Translations under genes and position numbers: made by a program
Virus record (IMG/VR): IMGVR_UViG_3300031976_000208
Span: 1-34,893 of that record
Length of the DNA stretch: 34,893 bases
Source of the DNA: a virus
Direction: 5' to 3' (one strand)
The notes under the pieces: generated by a model
Seen by the model: the letters and a program-made list of their open reading frames with translations, nothing else
Told to the model about the DNA's origin: nothing
Database searches by the model: none
Shown: positions 7,912 to 19,344 of the stretch, one piece after another
Numbering within the stretch: the first letter of the stretch is position 1
How the letters are laid out: each line of letters begins with the position of its first letter

Positions 7912-9480
7912 TTAATATCCAAATGTAGCATCTGCTACCGGCATAGAGTGTGTTGGTACACCTCTTGGGTCGTAATCAAATAAGCTAAATCTTGGTCTTG
8001 ACATTATACCATATCTTAATGCATCATACAAGTGGTCTTCAGCTAAAGTATCTACATCCTCTGGGTTTTTCTTATCTAGTGGAATAGACGGTAATTGTGC
8101 TGTAGTGTTACTACATGTGTTAAAAAATACTAGTCTTGGTTCTTCTGTAAACTCATCTATCTGTAAACGTCTGTGTATCTCGTTCTTACCTGCTACACGA
8201 CTACCTTTACTTCTATCTGATGGTCTCCAACGACAGCCTCGCATAATCATTTGTTCTGCTAGGGAAGGACCTGTGTCTCCTCGCTTGTGCCATAAGGAGC
8301 TATCTAATACTCCATATCTTATACCACCATCTCCGTCTTCTAAATCCAATATCATATCTGCCAAATCTGTGGCAAGGACTTTGCTAACGTATAATTCTCT
8401 GTAGACAATAAGTTGTTCAGATGGTGACACAGCAAACCAAAGGACACCAGACTTACTGCCATAACCGTAATCACAAGCTCTAAACTTAACCCAATTATGT
8501 GGTACATCATAAGGCTCAATAACGTGCACATTCCTATCAAACTCAGTGAAAGCAGCACCTTCCTTAATATCCCAATCGCCATCCAATAATTGCCTTCGTT
8601 GCTGTTCAGGTAATGATAAGAGCATGGCTTCGTAATCCCCTTGCTCTGCAAGATAAGGATTGTCTGATAATCGTGCAGGGATAAATCTCCTTTTGAATAA
8701 TGATTTTCCAGCCTTTTCATGTCCTGCCGGATATTTAAGGACTTCTGTTGTTTCAATGTCTGTAGCATCAAATGAGTTTCCGTATGGGGCTGGGTCAATA
8801 AACATTTTTTTAACCCAGTGATGACCCCTGCCTCCCGGATTTGTTGTTGCTCTCATAAATATTGGTAAGTCTTTTGCTACTGACCTCAATCTAGAACGCA
8901 TATAGTTCCATGCGTATGGTGTTGCCCACTGTGTTAACTCATCAAAGCCTATCCAACTAAATGCTAAACCTTGATACCTTAGTACATCGTCATCTCTATC
9001 CAAATAAGACATCCACAACCTAGCACCTGACGGTGCAACCCACTGCATCTTTCTTTCTGACCATTTAATTCCCGGAATAATCTTTGGATATATTTCCTGA
9101 GACTTAAATATCAACTCTCTTAATTCTTCTGTTGTGTGTCTTAGTAGTAGTCCACTAAATGATGGGTGACTCATATATCTCAATGGGTCTGCTAACATGG
9201 CATAACTCTTGCCACCACCTGCTGAACCACCATATAGTACTTCTCTTTCACCAGCTGCTAAAAACTCTGTCTGAGGTCCTTCGTTGGGTTTAAAAATAAT
9301 ATTGTGCTTCTGCTCAATAGGTATTTCTGTTATACGTTCAACTTCTTGGACTTTAGACTCAAGAGTAGGCTTTTGCACCGGTTCTTTCTTGCTCAATTTC
9401 TTTCGCCTTGGAGATCGCCGCTTCTGCATACTCTGCCCACTTGCGTAGGCTTCTAGCTTGGTTCTTACGTCTTTTTTCAT
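7912..9480 (-). CDS. terL: Terminase large subunit (packaging ATPase and nuclease)
   Basis: 522 residues. Walker A is GGSAGGGKS at 84-92, Walker B is FSWIGFDE at 174-181 with catalytic Glu, and the coupling motif ATTNPGG is at 211-217. The RNase H-like nuclease has candidate metal ligands Asp337 (ACDYGYG), Asp393 (VLDSS) and Asp482/Asp486 (EDHLYDALRYG). It cuts concatemeric DNA and pumps it through the portal. The start at 9480 has AAGG upstream and overlaps the preceding gene by 122 nt; the shared N-terminal region is basic and poorly conserved in character (RRSPRRKKLSKK). Confidence 0.93.
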   Translation of the reverse strand: MKKDVRTKLEAYASGQSMQKRRSPRRKKLSKKEPVQKPTLESKVQEVERITEIPIEQKHNIIFKPNEGPQTEFLAAGEREVLYGGSAGGGKSYAMLADPLRYMSHPSFSGLLLRHTTEELRELIFKSQEIYPKIIPGIKWSERKMQWVAPSGARLWMSYLDRDDDVLRYQGLAFSWIGFDELTQWATPYAWNYMRSRLRSVAKDLPIFMRATTNPGGRGHHWVKKMFIDPAPYGNSFDATDIETTEVLKYPAGHEKAGKSLFKRRFIPARLSDNPYLAEQGDYEAMLLSLPEQQRRQLLDGDWDIKEGAAFTEFDRNVHVIEPYDVPHNWVKFRACDYGYGSKSGVLWFAVSPSEQLIVYRELYVSKVLATDLADMILDLEDGDGGIRYGVLDSSLWHKRGDTGPSLAEQMIMRGCRWRPSDRSKGSRVAGKNEIHRRLQIDEFTEEPRLVFFNTCSNTTAQLPSIPLDKKNPEDVDTLAEDHLYDALRYGIMSRPRFSLFDYDPRGVPTHSMPVADATFGY

Positions 9481-15723: not shown

Positions 15724-15761
15724 TGTCAAGTTTATTTCTATTTAAGGGAATTAAAATACAC

Positions 15762-15807
15762 ATTATAAATGTATTATTATATATATTGTTTATATATTAT
15801 AAATGTA
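15762..15807. repeat. Direct repeat ATTATAAATGTA, two copies
   Basis: ATTATAAATGTA occurs at 15762-15773 and 15796-15807, 34 bp apart start to start, in an extremely AT-rich leader just downstream of the late promoter. Position in the leader suggests an operator or a duplex-unwinding segment; that is inference. Confidence 0.5.
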
Positions 15808-15835
15808 ACATTGTCTATGTACTAGTTATAACGTA

Positions 15836-15864
15836 ATTATACCATGGAAATTTAATTCTGTCAA
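15836..15864 (-). promoter_or_regulatory. Consensus sigma-70 promoter of the late (leftward) operon
   Basis: Minus strand TTGACA (15864-15859), exactly 17 bp, TATAAT (15841-15836), with an extended -10 (TGG immediately before TATAAT). Every base of both hexamers matches consensus. Predicted start near 15829, about 105 nt upstream of the first late ATG at 15723. It implies use of the host housekeeping polymerase. It would be very strong unless repressed, and repeats around it (TATTTAAGG at 15739, 15907 and 15917; ATTATAAATGTA at 15762 and 15796) are candidate operators. Confidence 0.85.
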
Positions 15865-15906
15865 GACATTTTAAATGTAAGCACCCCGCCGCACTCATTT
15901 TATGTA

Positions 15907-15925
15907 TATTTAAGGCTATTTAAGG
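15907..15925. repeat. Tandem TATTTAAGG repeat
   Basis: TATTTAAGG at 15907-15915 and again at 15917-15925, a 10-bp period, with a third copy at 15739-15747 on the other side of the late promoter. One helical turn spacing is typical of protein-binding sites. Confidence 0.4.
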
Positions 15926-16071
15926 ATACTTTTATGTACATTATTATCACTTATCCTTGTGGTTAACACCTAATATTCCTAATCTGTGTAGTTATACATG
16001 TATATAACGTGGTACGGGGGGTGTGGCAGTGGCATAGGGTGTATAAACTTGGCAAATTGCATGTTTGCAAG

Positions 16072-16142
16072 TGATAATTACTATCATTCGCATTATCATT
16101 CGCAATAAGTCTTTGATTTTGCTAATCATTCTCATTATCAAC
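16072..16142. promoter_or_regulatory. Fur-box-like array, upstream cluster
   Basis: TGATAATTACTATCA (16072-16086) matches the 7-1-7 Fur box TGATAATnATTATCA at all but one position. It runs into two copies of TATCATTCGCA 12 bp apart (16082-16092 and 16094-16104). A third element, TCATTCTCATTATCA (16126-16140), matches less well. The array ends about 25 bp before the first sigma-54-like promoter. The match to the Fur consensus is direct; binding by Fur is inference. It could be the enhancer of a sigma-54 activator with a similar site. Confidence 0.5.
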
Positions 16143-16165
16143 AACTGATATAAGAACAGTTTTCT

Positions 16166-16181
16166 TGGCATGTATCTTGCA
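16166..16181 (+). promoter_or_regulatory. Sigma-54-like promoter P1
   Basis: TGGCATGTATCTTGCA has the invariant GG-N10-GC spacing of -24/-12 promoters and a full TTGC -12 element. It lies about 260 bp before the first early ATG, in the divergent region, directly after the upstream Fur-like cluster. Weakest -24 of the set (TGGCAT rather than TGGCAC). Confidence 0.5.
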
Positions 16182-16184
16182 ATA

Positions 16185-16200
16185 GCACAAACTATGCCAA
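16185..16200 (-). promoter_or_regulatory. Weak minus-strand -24/-12-like site
   Basis: On the minus strand TGGCATAGTTTGTGCT keeps GG-N10-GC, but the -12 element is TGTGC instead of TTGC. It starts 4 bp after P1 and faces the late operon. It may be chance, or a divergent companion promoter. Confidence 0.25.
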
Positions 16201-16230
16201 AATTAAAAAATGTTAATGTAGGAGTATACT

Positions 16231-16246
16231 TGGCACGATTCTTGCT
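16231..16246 (+). promoter_or_regulatory. Sigma-54-like promoter P2
   Basis: TGGCACGATTCTTGCT: TGGCACG and TTGCT match the -24 and -12 consensus (TGGCACG-N4-TTGCA/T). It lies between the upstream Fur-like cluster and the 16247-16323 cluster, immediately before the first copy of the 20-bp direct repeat. Confidence 0.6.
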
Positions 16247-16323
16247 ACTATCCCACTTGCGAATGATTATCACATTGAGAATGAGAATCATTATCAACTA
16301 TCCCACTTGCGAATGAGTCGCAA
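16247..16323. repeat. 20-bp direct repeats enclosing Fur-box-like palindromes
   Basis: ACTATCCCACTTGCGAATGA occurs at 16247-16266 and 16297-16316, exactly 50 bp apart. Between and across them are TGCGAATGATTATCA (16258-16272, 13 of 15 to the 7-1-7 Fur box) and TGAGAATCATTATCA (16282-16296, all but one position). The second copy extends into the inverted repeat TTGCGA-N5-TCGCAA (16307-16323). The cluster ends 17 bp before sigma-54-like P3. It looks like a tandem regulator-binding array. Confidence 0.6.
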
Positions 16324-16339
16324 TTGCAGGTGGGAAGTT

Positions 16340-16355
16340 TGGCACGGCAATTGCA
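16340..16355 (+). promoter_or_regulatory. Sigma-54-like promoter P3, for first early gene
   Basis: TGGCACGGCAATTGCA is a complete match to TGGCACG-N4-TTGCA. Predicted start near 16367, 40 nt before the palindrome at 16406 and about 77 nt before the ATG at 16444. The stretch GAAGTTTGGCACGG...TTGCATATA is repeated almost unchanged at 17119, which supports real function. Confidence 0.68.
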
Positions 16356-16405
16356 TATATCTTATATAACTTTAACATTGTCTAAATTTTGACAAAACCA
16401 AAAAA

Positions 16406-16420
16406 ATCCTAAGTTAGGAT
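16406..16420. repeat. 15-bp palindrome copy 1 (CCTAAGTTAGG family)
   Basis: ATCCTAAGTTAGGAT is a 7-1-7 inverted repeat in the leader of the first early gene, 24 nt before the ATG, followed by AAAACAGA as in copies 2 and 6. No U-run follows, so it is not a terminator. Confidence 0.7.
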
Positions 16421-16443
16421 AAAACAGAAAGCGAGAAAAGAAA

Positions 16444-17022
16444 ATGAATACATTTATTAAAGATATAGAAAATACAATCACTGTAATGAATTATGAATTA
16501 TCAAGTGAAACTAATAAGTTTAAAAAATTAGATGAAAATCTAGATAGCATTATTAATACAAGTGTTAGTGTTATTGAGTGTGAAAATGAAATTAACTTAT
16601 TTAAAGGTAAAAATAAAAAAGCTTTTAGATTACAAACTATTGAGAAAAAAGGCTTAACTAAAGTGTATCAAATAATTCATAAGTTAGGAAAAAATTGTAT
16701 GAAAGTTGTTAAATTAATTGGTTCAAATCCAATAACAACTAAAAATAATTACATTGAAAAAATGGAAAATGGTGGGCGTATTACTACAATTGAGGGATTG
16801 AAAAGTTGTGCAAAACCTACTGAAACAATTGAAAAAACTATTGAAGAAAAAATAGAAAGTTTCATTAAATCAAATACTACTAAAAAAGAGAATGATGAAA
16901 AAATGACAATTGCAGAATTTACCAAGTTGTTTTCTACAGTAGCTCAAAAAATGCATAATGAAAATAATAAAAATGTAGTTGATATGTTACCAACTAAAAA
17001 AGATATTGCCGTAAATGCATAA
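16444..17022 (+). CDS. First early protein (unknown), cassette-like
   Basis: 192 residues, Lys/Asn/Ile/Glu-rich with long helices and no recognised domain; opens MNTFIKDIENTITVMNYELS. Three Cys are scattered and there is no membrane segment. The coding sequence is visibly more A/T-rich than its neighbours. It sits between its own sigma-54-like promoter with palindrome copy 1 and an intrinsic terminator at 17040-17073, the layout of an independently expressed (moron-like) gene. GAGAAAAG lies before the ATG. It could be an early host-takeover protein or a regulator; that is inference. Confidence 0.7.
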   Translation: MNTFIKDIENTITVMNYELSSETNKFKKLDENLDSIINTSVSVIECENEINLFKGKNKKAFRLQTIEKKGLTKVYQIIHKLGKNCMKVVKLIGSNPITTKNNYIEKMENGGRITTIEGLKSCAKPTETIEKTIEEKIESFIKSNTTKKENDEKMTIAEFTKLFSTVAQKMHNENNKNVVDMLPTKKDIAVNA

Positions 17023-17039
17023 ACAATATAAATTATATT

Positions 17040-17073
17040 TGAGGGATTTATTTCCCTCATTTATTTTTTTTTT
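17040..17073 (+). terminator. Intrinsic terminator after first early gene
   Basis: GAGGGA pairs with TCCCTC (6 bp, 6-nt loop TTTATT), extended by one T-A pair, followed by a T-rich run with ten consecutive T shortly after. It lies 18 nt past the stop at 17022. A purine-rich tract and then sigma-54-like promoter P4 follow. Confidence 0.8.
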
Positions 17074-17118
17074 ACTTCCTACTATCCTAAAGGGGGAGAG
17101 GGGAGAGGTGCGAGAAGT

Positions 17119-17134
17119 TGGCACGGATATTGCA
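17119..17134 (+). promoter_or_regulatory. Sigma-54-like promoter P4
   Basis: TGGCACGGATATTGCA is a complete match to TGGCACG-N4-TTGCA. Predicted start near 17145, 15 nt before palindrome copy 2 and 49 nt before the ATG at 17194. It restarts transcription right after the terminator at 17040-17073, which gives it a clear job. Confidence 0.7.
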
Positions 17135-17159
17135 TATACTATGTATAGATTGCTATTAA

Positions 17160-17174
17160 TTCCTAAGTTAGGAA
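17160..17174. repeat. 15-bp palindrome copy 2
   Basis: TTCCTAAGTTAGGAA, perfect 7-1-7 inverted repeat, followed by AAAACAGA. It lies between sigma-54-like P4 and the ribosome site (TTGGAGAC) of the gene at 17194. Confidence 0.72.
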
Positions 17175-17193
17175 AAAACAGATTGGAGACAAA

Positions 17194-17433
17194 ATGACTA
17201 GACGTATCAAATTTGATGGTGGGATTCCATGTAATGTTACATACAGTAACTTGCAATCACACCAAAAAGATTTCTCTAAACATACAGATAGAGAAAGACA
17301 TGAAAAGAATTTTAGAGTGGTGAGTGCAGACCATATCAACGCTATGGAGACACGTAACTATATACAAGCTAAACAATATACACGTGATGCAAATGCTATT
17401 GTTGATGCCTTTGCATGGCTCAAAGATTGCTAG
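17194..17433 (+). CDS. Small early protein (unknown)
   Basis: 79 residues: MTRRIKFDGGIPCNVTYSNL, then a charged His/Arg/Lys section and a C-terminal helix ending AFAWLKDC. GGAG lies 7 nt before the ATG. First gene after sigma-54-like P4 and palindrome copy 2, with copy 3 after its stop. No family recognised. Its size and early place fit a host-takeover or regulatory peptide. Confidence 0.65.
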   Translation: MTRRIKFDGGIPCNVTYSNLQSHQKDFSKHTDRERHEKNFRVVSADHINAMETRNYIQAKQYTRDANAIVDAFAWLKDC

Positions 17434-17453
17434 TTTCAAAGGCTAGTAAAAAA

Positions 17454-17466
17454 TCCTAAGTTAGGA
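17454..17466. repeat. Palindrome copy 3
   Basis: TCCTAAGTTAGGA with a following half-site TTTAGGATAA (17468-17477). It lies in the 73-bp gap between two small early genes. Confidence 0.7.
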
Positions 17467-17506
17467 AATTTAGGATAATAACAACCAAAAAGAAAGGAGC
17501 AGTTTA

Positions 17507-17866
17507 ATGCTTTTTATAAACTTTGAAAAGGTATCTAAGGATACAATAATAAATGGTAGCTTTATTTCAATCAAGATTATGGCTACTTTAACTAAACTCA
17601 AACTTCTATCCTACCTACATTCTGGATACAAGCCAACTATATATAGGAGAGAGCAAGAATTTCCTAACATGAGAAAAGGTTGGTTTGTCAAGATGGGGAG
17701 TGGACAAAAGTCTGGAGAACCATTAATTAGGTTTAATTGGTACAAGCCTTTTAGTGGATGGCGATACTCATCATTCCATGCTTACAATAGGAATGGTAAG
17801 CCTAGAGTATCACAAAACTGGTATGTAGCAATCAAAGGTATGATTGTACAAAAGTTAGTTGGATAA
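17507..17866 (+). CDS. Early protein, aromatic and basic (unknown)
   Basis: 119 residues. AAAGGAG sits 7 nt before the ATG. The C-terminal two-thirds is rich in Trp, Tyr, Arg and Gly (for example RFNWYKPFSGWRYSSFHAYN), suggesting a compact beta-rich nucleic-acid-binding fold. The N-terminal 24 residues may be a weakly ordered lead-in, since an internal Met (MATLTKLKL) could also start it, but without a ribosome site. Flanked by palindrome copies 3 and 4. Function unknown. Confidence 0.65.
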   Translation: MLFINFEKVSKDTIINGSFISIKIMATLTKLKLLSYLHSGYKPTIYRREQEFPNMRKGWFVKMGSGQKSGEPLIRFNWYKPFSGWRYSSFHAYNRNGKPRVSQNWYVAIKGMIVQKLVG

Positions 17867-17881
17867 TTCCTAAGTTAGGAA
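17867..17881. repeat. 15-bp palindrome copy 4
   Basis: TTCCTAAGTTAGGAA immediately after the stop of the previous gene. The palindrome is identical to copy 2. Confidence 0.72.
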
Positions 17882-17925
17882 AAATGGTGGGGAGACAATC
17901 AAGTCTTCCCTTTCCAAACTAATAG

Positions 17926-18043
17926 TCAAGTAAGTAGTGATATTGTCACTATTCACTTGAACATTAGGTGGAGAAAAGCAAAGCAATACTATGGTCGAAG
18001 TAGCATATAAAGTATGTGAAAAGAACCCATGTACCATCTAATG
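17926..18043 (+). ncRNA. Structured intergenic RNA element (candidate)
   Basis: No gene is seen in 17867-18078. Arm 17926-17941 pairs with 17945-17960 (16 positions, one mismatch, two G-U wobbles, 3-nt loop). Next, GAACATTAGGTGG (17959-17971) pairs along all 13 bp, one G-U, with CCATCTAATGTTC (18031-18043), enclosing 59 nt that hold a smaller ATACT/AGTAT pairing. It is not tRNA-like (no T-arm). It could be a leader element for the gene at 18079 or a small phage RNA. Judged by eye only. Confidence 0.4.
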
Positions 18044-18078
18044 TTCTTTAACTGTAACAATTTATATAGGAGTTTACA

Positions 18079-18333
18079 ATGGGAAACCAAATAGTATTAC
18101 CAATAAGAAATAGTGAAGATGGAAAGAAAAGATACGTGTCTATAGTCCAAAATGATATTGGAGAAATAGGTCGTGGCATCAGACATGGAAATTATGGGGA
18201 TAAAGTTGAGATTGCCATATTAGATGAGAACTATGCATACATAGATGATGGCACATTTACGTATGGAGTATTGGGGTTTTTAACTACACCACAATTAGCA
18301 ATAGAATTATTAAAACTAGTAGAGATGGAGTAA
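18079..18333 (+). CDS. Small early protein (unknown)
   Basis: 84 residues: MGNQIVLPIRNSEDGKKRYV, then an acidic beta-rich stretch (VEIAILDENYAYIDDGTFTY) and a C-terminal helix. AGGAG lies 7 nt before the ATG. It sits just downstream of the structured RNA candidate and 3 nt before the next gene, so the two are probably co-translated. No domain recognised. Confidence 0.65.
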   Translation: MGNQIVLPIRNSEDGKKRYVSIVQNDIGEIGRGIRHGNYGDKVEIAILDENYAYIDDGTFTYGVLGFLTTPQLAIELLKLVEME

Positions 18334-18336
18334 GAT

Positions 18337-19038
18337 ATGACTACAATTACAGTTGCAGAACTAAATGATTTATGGAGATGGTGTGAGGATATTGGTCAAT
18401 TTTCTACAGACAGACCAATCAACGACACAAAAAACCATGAGGGGTCGTGTATTCACAGAACACCCTTTTGCAATACTACGTGTTACAATATAAAATTGTA
18501 CAACATCTATCCTAATATGCATGACAGAGATGACAGATGCGAGACGATATGGCAGAAGTTACCTACTGATGTGGAATGGTATGTCAATAATTTCAAACCA
18601 TTCTTTGAACGTAAGAAAAAGCAAACTAAACGTAGGCGATTTATGACTAGAGGCGAGGCTATCAAAGATATGGTAGATGTGTACAGAATACGTGCTATGG
18701 CTCTTGCTGAACCTAATGTTATCTATTGGCTACCAACTAGAGCATGGCAAAGTAAGCACCTCAAGGCTCTTGTAGAGCTTGAACTGATGCCATTGAAGAA
18801 TATTGCACTCAATGCCTCTACAGACCCTACAACTACGTCTGAGGAGTATGCTATGCTACAACAAGATGGGTGGAATACTATGTTCTATGGGGATGATGAT
18901 GGCTATACAGATGTCAAGATGTTTCCATGTCCTAAAACATTCAAAGGTATCAAGGGTCATTGTTCTATCTGCAAGGGTGGGTGTATGTCTCAAGCTACTA
19001 TTGGCAAGAGAAGTGATACTCATTTGATTGAGCATTAA
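18337..19038 (+). CDS. Cys-rich metal-binding protein, Gp88-like
   Basis: 233 residues. Cys clusters stand at both ends: CIHRTPFCNTTCYN (N-terminal) and CPKTFKGIKGHCSICKGGC (C-terminal). Between them are MTRGEAIKDMVDVYRIRAMA, WLPTRAWQSKHLKAL, and NASTDPTT with GWNTMFYGDDDG. I recall similar proteins in actinobacterial and marine phages as 'gene product 88' family, with conserved Cys ends and LPTRAWR/CPKTxKGIKGHCxxC segments. The Cys sets could bind Zn or an Fe-S cluster. Enzymatic role unknown. Palindrome copy 5 follows its stop. Confidence 0.65.
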   Translation: MTTITVAELNDLWRWCEDIGQFSTDRPINDTKNHEGSCIHRTPFCNTTCYNIKLYNIYPNMHDRDDRCETIWQKLPTDVEWYVNNFKPFFERKKKQTKRRRFMTRGEAIKDMVDVYRIRAMALAEPNVIYWLPTRAWQSKHLKALVELELMPLKNIALNASTDPTTTSEEYAMLQQDGWNTMFYGDDDGYTDVKMFPCPKTFKGIKGHCSICKGGCMSQATIGKRSDTHLIEH

Positions 19039-19042
19039 AATA

Positions 19043-19055
19043 TCCTAAGTTAGGA
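19043..19055. repeat. Palindrome copy 5
   Basis: TCCTAAGTTAGGA in the 47-bp gap between the Gp88-like gene and the next small gene. Confidence 0.7.
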
Positions 19056-19085
19056 ATTAACCGTTACCAGTATAGGGAGAGTGTT

Positions 19086-19250
19086 ATGCTGATAAGACCA
19101 ATTACTCCTATTGCCAAATCATTGGCTCACCATAGGAGACGTAAGGCAATTATGCCAATTAAAAAAGACTACAACAAAGAAAAGGAGAAGACAAATGCGA
19201 GACAATTCTACATTCCAAAAGATTCCAGTCAAAAAGAAACCACAAACTAA
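19086..19250 (+). CDS. Small basic early protein (unknown)
   Basis: 54 residues starting MLIRPITPIAKSLAHHRRRK, with GGGAGAG just before the ATG. It is Lys/Arg/His-rich. The 3' end overlaps the next gene by 56 nt in another frame. The strong ribosome site is the main support. The basic character suggests nucleic-acid binding; function unknown. Confidence 0.5.
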   Translation: MLIRPITPIAKSLAHHRRRKAIMPIKKDYNKEKEKTNARQFYIPKDSSQKETTN

Positions 19251-19344
19251 GTATGGTAGACAAGATTGGAAAGTGGCACGTAAATTGCAACGTAACCATA
19301 AGTTTAAATTACAAAACCAAAGATTTGAAAGGGGGTATGTGTAA
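19195..19344 (+). CDS. Small basic early protein (unknown)
   Basis: 49 residues from the ATG at 19195, which has AAAGGAG 7 nt upstream. It is highly basic: KKKPQTKYGRQDWKVARKLQ then RNHKFKLQNQRFERGYV. Stop overlaps the next ATG (TAATG). A complete sigma-54-like promoter (19274-19289) lies inside its coding sequence. Function unknown; probably RNA- or DNA-binding. Confidence 0.58.
   Translation: MRDNSTFQKIPVKKKPQTKYGRQDWKVARKLQRNHKFKLQNQRFERGYV
19274..19289 (+). promoter_or_regulatory. Sigma-54-like promoter P5, intragenic
   Basis: TGGCACGTAAATTGCA is a complete match to TGGCACG-N4-TTGCA, inside the 49-residue gene and on the same strand. Predicted start near 19301, 43 nt before the ATG at 19344. 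It could boost the downstream block of small genes. Coding constraint means chance cannot be excluded for this one site. Confidence 0.5.

Follow-up and report, generated by a model that had tools for sequence, protein, structure and literature searches.

Phage transcription is usually attributed to the hijacking of host sigma-70 or to RNA polymerases of the phage itself. Sigma-54 (RpoN) depends absolutely on an activator ATPase, and a phage using it would therefore have a built-in gate. In bacteria, sigma-54 promoters such as those of E. coli hypA, pspA and rpoH share the -24/-12 form TGGCAYR-N4-TTGCW, with GG-N10-GC inside it (PMC4591121). Phage genes have been connected with sigma-54 regulation in the Gifsy-1/RtcR system of Salmonella (PMC9879122), and one phage protein with weak similarity to sigma-54 has been reported (PMC7693777). 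No relevant report of sigma-54 promoters on phage genomes was found in the open literature searched, the coverage of which was limited. Here we analyzed a 34.9-kb stretch of viral DNA (IMG/VR record IMGVR_UViG_3300031976_000208, positions 1 to 34,893; hereafter the window), a fragment of an HMO-2011-type marine phage that carries four sites of this form, P1-P4. We consider P1-P4 to be working sigma-54 promoters of the rightward operon, activated by an enhancer-binding protein of the host, with a probability of about 0.7.

Sigma-54-type sites in the window and its clade

An earlier note on this DNA listed five plus-strand sites of the form TGGCA-N6-TTGC, at 16166, 16231, 16340, 17119 and 19274. 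All five were found at these positions, and the further particulars given for them, TGGCACG in the last four and a TTGCA ending at 16340, 17119 and 19274, proved correct. The sites have GG-N10-GC inside TGGCAYR-N4-TTGCW. Fewer than one match had been expected per window, in agreement with dinucleotide shuffles (mean 0.27, largest 2); seven exact matches were found on the plus strand and none on the minus strand. The two matches absent from the list, at 8370 and 9198, both lie in terL. When the spacing was varied, TGGCA-Nk-TTGC occurred seven times at k=6 and 0-2 times at other values of k.

Both strands were then scanned with a sigma-54 weight matrix derived from 42 intergenic E. coli sites identified by chromatin immunoprecipitation sequencing (PMC4591121) and compared with shuffled sequence, a check that the note had proposed. 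The listed sites were the five best in the window, all on the plus strand, and scored 18.9-21.9, compared with a median of 16.8 and a maximum of 21.3 for the E. coli sites. Scores of at least 18.6 were reached five times in the window and never in 100 shuffles. The divergent intergenic region (15730-16443, 714 bp), which holds P1-P3, contained three sites at or above the E. coli median, versus 0.003 in shuffles.

Coding sequence contains three of the seven exact matches: the two in terL and 19274, which lies inside a frame of 49 codons (19195-19344) with a ribosome-binding site. Four sites, not five, are therefore good promoter candidates. Both terL matches are retained in G040, a record without any other match or intergenic cluster. 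A search for relatives of the 49-codon frame found none, and the site at 19274 is probably a coding coincidence. Unlike 19274, P1-P4 are intergenic and oriented into the rightward operon. The proposal that the sites are promoters is supported for P1-P4, on consensus quality, intergenic position, orientation and core footprint, but not for the fifth. A site right behind a terminator had also been claimed, which is true of P4: the intrinsic terminator after gene 1 (17040-17059) lies directly upstream of it, and a similar hairpin with a T-run is present in L218, L137 and L140. P1 and a leftward partner arm, P1', together form a 36-bp face-to-face double site.

Relatives were gathered with two genes as entry points, the 69-aa gene to the left of this region and gene 1 of the rightward operon; the close clade consists of L135-L142 and L218. 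Every clade sequence that reaches a site retains it. At P1, each of the six spacer positions varied but the core was unchanged in 7/7 clade sequences, and in the P1' arm (TTGGCA-N6-GTGC) relatives differed only within the spacer. P2 was retained in all clade relatives covering it and P3 in 4/4. P4 was retained in L218, which has all four sites, and its first bases are visible at the sequence end of L140. Over the four sites, variable columns numbered 0/36 in the cores and 8/24 in the spacers, with a chance probability of about 3e-4. The nine core bases of each site stay fixed even though identity in gene 1 falls to 46% in relatives. In the same region of other HMO-2011-type loci (57 kb), no matrix match was found at the E. 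coli median score, and whole HMO-2011-type records, including HMO-2011 and CRP-1, had 0-2 scattered matches each. Its absence from these loci makes the array a derived trait of one clade, kept there by selection.

Similar sites in other viral records

Selections from IMG/VR started from the motif itself and so show its recurrence and placement, not its frequency. Many contigs retrieved by a scan for one strict site had further sites. Once the sites used for selection were masked, these contigs still contained 203 copies of TGGCA-Nk-TTGC at k=6, versus 5-16 at other spacings. Tandem pairs were found in at least 120 stretches, a lower bound, versus 40 in the whole collection for a control with a 7-base spacer. 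Among the matches listed for the tandem-pair contigs, 255/396 sites were intergenic, although about 80% of bases were coding according to a simple frame caller; the shifted-spacing control gave 0/75. The earlier note had called sigma-54 use by phages rare. The tandem stretches make this doubtful, although the literature searched yielded no published case.

A 116-kb phage record contained 21 sites in one direction within 17 kb, most of which end 34-71 bp ahead of a start codon, and two further records contained 21 and 13 one-way sites. Such arrays of 13-21 sites, approximately one per gene, occur in L381 (1-17300; record G011), L385-L386 (G027) and L387 (G020). In G008, found through a homologue of a 233-aa rightward gene, four tandem sites stand immediately upstream of terL. 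Face-to-face pairs also recur: 20 were seen in unrelated viral contigs at the 34-38 geometry of P1/P1'.

Two face-to-face sites form near-perfect palindromes of 36-37 bp in L100 (5836-6038), L110, L113 and L120. The palindrome in L100 is repeated in tandem.

Gene layout and neighbouring elements

Assignment of the window to the HMO-2011 type fits its homologous TerL (84% identical to that of HMO-2011), DNA polymerase and integrase and its gene order. Rightward genes include primase, DnaB, PolA, ribonucleotide reductase and integrase; portal, capsid and terminase are encoded leftward. The minimum of the cumulative GC skew, near 16 kb (lowest bin 15-16 kb), coincides with the divergent intergenic region; a coding-strand switch or a replication origin would be expected to produce it. 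No tRNA was found in the window, and an Rfam scan of the region gave no structured RNA family above the cut-off. A stretch at 16720, inside gene 1, resembles a tRNA T-arm, probably by chance.

Table 1. Coordinates of the sigma-54-type sites and of neighbouring features in the window.
Feature	Coordinates	Strand	Details
Canonical sigma-70 promoter, TTGACA-N17-TATAAT	15836-15864	-	12/12 consensus match
Conserved element, TGTGGTTAAC-N11-CTAATCTGTG	15957-15990	+	group-wide
Upstream cluster of Fur-box-like 7-1-7 palindromes	16072-16134		about -120 to -58 of P1
P1, sigma-54-type -24/-12 site, TTGGCATGTATCTTGCA	16165-16181	+	matrix 18.9; predicted start about 16192
P1', leftward partner arm, TTGGCATAGTTTGTGCT	16184-16200	-	matrix 14.1
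P2, TTGGCACGATTCTTGCT	16230-16246	+	matrix 21.9, best in window; predicted start about 16257
Second cluster of Fur-box-like palindromes	16258-16296		about -108 to -70 of P3
P3, before gene 1, TTGGCACGGCAATTGCA	16339-16355	+	matrix 20.5; predicted start about 16366
Palindrome TCCTAAGTTAGGA, between P3 and gene 1	16407-16419	+	
Gene 1 of rightward operon	16444-17022	+	192 aa; no family; 46% identity in relatives
Intrinsic terminator between gene 1 and P4	17040-17059	+	
P4, between terminator and gene 2, TTGGCACGGATATTGCA	17118-17134	+	matrix 20.9; predicted start about 17145
Gene 2	17194-17433	+	79 aa; no family; downstream of P4
Fifth listed site	19273-19289	+	matrix 18.9; inside frame 19195-19344

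The leftward sigma-70 promoter scores 12/12 in 64/75 HMO-2011-type loci. No comparable rightward sigma-70 promoter was found in the group, where rightward scores were low throughout. The conserved element has identical spacing in all 38 matching loci (of 75), HMO-2011 included, and is perhaps an ancestral rightward promoter. The earlier note placed the sites at an early operon. P1-P4 are indeed directed at the rightward operon; calling it "early" is conjecture, because the group's canonical sigma-70 promoter (15864-15836) fires leftward. The sigma-54 operon may instead be a second, conditional class.

Two clusters of palindromes lie upstream of P1 and P3, at distances (58-120 and 70-108 bp) from which enhancer-binding proteins usually act. 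They match Fur boxes (TGANAATNATTNTCA) in exact and near-exact copies. The intergenic region holds six such boxes, versus 0.19 in shuffles. Clade relatives have 4 to 11 per locus, whereas the 8 boxes in 56 kb of other HMO-2011-type phages correspond to background; among phages of this type, the palindromes and the sigma-54-type sites are confined to the same clade. We read the palindromes as putative regulatory elements: Fur boxes of the host or enhancer sites of an activator. The literature searched contained no description of Fur boxes in such phages.

TCCTAAGTTAGGA occurs in five copies of one orientation placed between rightward genes, the copy in Table 1 and those at 17161-17173, 17454-17466, 17868-17880 and 19043-19055. 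In relatives, TCCCAAGTTGGGA replaces it at matching places, the arms are never mixed, and copies also occur within gene 1. Such concerted change, with one arm compensating for the other, points to a trans-acting partner with shifted specificity, and the element may be a stoperator-like operator or an RNA hairpin. A different palindrome, TTGCACAA-NN-CTTGTGCATA, is conserved in the corresponding region of other HMO-2011-type loci, for example L146 and HMO-2011; either this form or a less strict one was seen there in 42/68 loci.

Interpretation and comparison with known systems

From the sites, their statistics, quality and orientation, the terminator, the constraint on the cores and the clade-specific co-occurrence, we infer binding and transcription at P1-P4, an activator, and a host with rpoN. 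Host RNA polymerase with sigma-54 would bind P1-P4 as closed complexes, and transcription would start only once an enhancer-binding ATPase of the host has been activated. P1-P3 would act as a stack ahead of gene 1; the arm that faces P1, P1', may drive leftward transcription; and P4 would recharge transcription of the rightward operon past the gene-1 terminator. If this is true, the phage has a gate that admits transcription only under certain host conditions, for example those of nitrogen or of envelope stress.

Several points weigh against promoter function. Neither PF00158 (enhancer-binding protein) nor PF04552 (sigma-54) was found in the window, and a host activator would therefore be required. 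The window is a fragment, with about one third of the phage genome outside it, since HMO-2011 is 55 kb long. To our knowledge, no activator site fits the upstream palindromes as well as Fur boxes do. P1 is palindromic, and a dimeric regulator would explain this too. A phage-encoded RpoN or enhancer-binding protein was rejected as a candidate, since neither turned up in the window or in its close relatives; the single PF00158 match was in the unrelated record G020. Searches for the host by alignment of gene 1 found nothing in genome contigs, and searches by TerL found only viral contigs, assigned to metagenome-assembled genomes of several different phyla. A literature search on SAR116 with rpoN found no relevant paper.

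The palindromic form makes a dimeric regulator the strongest rival: the motif would be the site of another, probably dimeric protein, with half-site TTGGCA-N6-TTGC and both single and 36-bp face-to-face operators. P1 and the 20 face-to-face pairs in unrelated contigs are of that form, and several contigs contain near-perfect palindromes. Most sites, however, among them P2-P4 and those of the 21-site array, stand singly, in a defined orientation, just ahead of start codons, and the motif equals the sigma-54 consensus down to its degenerate C/T and G positions; we regard such a regulator as unlikely. Somewhat less likely still is that sigma-54 holoenzyme binds and stays silent, as a roadblock or sponge that would keep the operon off or sequester sigma-54 until another signal. 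Most bound sigma-54 sites in E. coli are transcriptionally inactive in a given condition (PMC4591121), but P4 behind a terminator, and P3 and P4 at the distance of a 5' untranslated region (UTR), look like working promoters.

We give very little credence to TTGGCA being the -35 box of ordinary sigma-70 promoters, with TTGC incidental. AT-rich sequence does lie at a -10-like distance from P3, and a consensus scan gives TTGGCA-N18-GATAAT at 16049. At P1-P4, however, relatives conserve TTGC but not the -10 distance, the ground on which this reading was rejected, and rightward sigma-70 scores are low across the group. Chance matches or a composition artefact would accord with the three coding sites among the seven, but the shuffles, the spacing test and the phylogenetic footprint disfavour them strongly, leaving this the least credible of the explanations.

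Sigma-54 promoters are of a known kind; what appears new here, judged by the limited open literature searched, is a conserved array of them in a phage and their recurrence in uncultured phages. Such arrays suggest that some phages tie gene expression to a tightly controlled host sigma-54 switch. On a broader proposal our judgment is evenly balanced: that sigma-54-driven transcription is a widespread, unrecognised phage strategy, in which tandem, face-to-face or one-per-gene arrays in diverse uncultured phages would make infection depend on enhancer-binding proteins of the host and, in the clade of the window, possibly on iron too. Whether phage gene expression depends on sigma-54 becomes a directly testable general question, given a conserved array in an abundant marine phage group and tandem sites in no fewer than 120 other viral stretches.

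Like bacterial sigma-54 promoters, P1-P4 lie at 5'-UTR distances from genes; their scores fall within the top quartile of the E. coli sites (PMC4591121), and the palindromes upstream of P1 and P3 may be activator sites. Unlike the E. coli promoters, they lie in a phage, three in tandem and one behind a terminator, and one belongs to a face-to-face double site. With HMO-2011 and CRP-1 (PMC9038755) the window shares gene order, TerL, the leftward sigma-70 promoter and the conserved element, whereas the other members of the type examined are without sigma-54 sites and Fur-like boxes; the word "promoter" does not occur in the text of that study. The clustered 7-1-7 palindromes resemble Fur boxes in their exact and near-exact copies; these candidate Fur sites differ from known Fur boxes in that they alternate with sigma-54 sites in the regulatory region of a phage. 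In Gifsy-1/RtcR (PMC9879122), prophage genes influence a sigma-54 operon of the host, whereas the phage of the window would carry the promoters itself.

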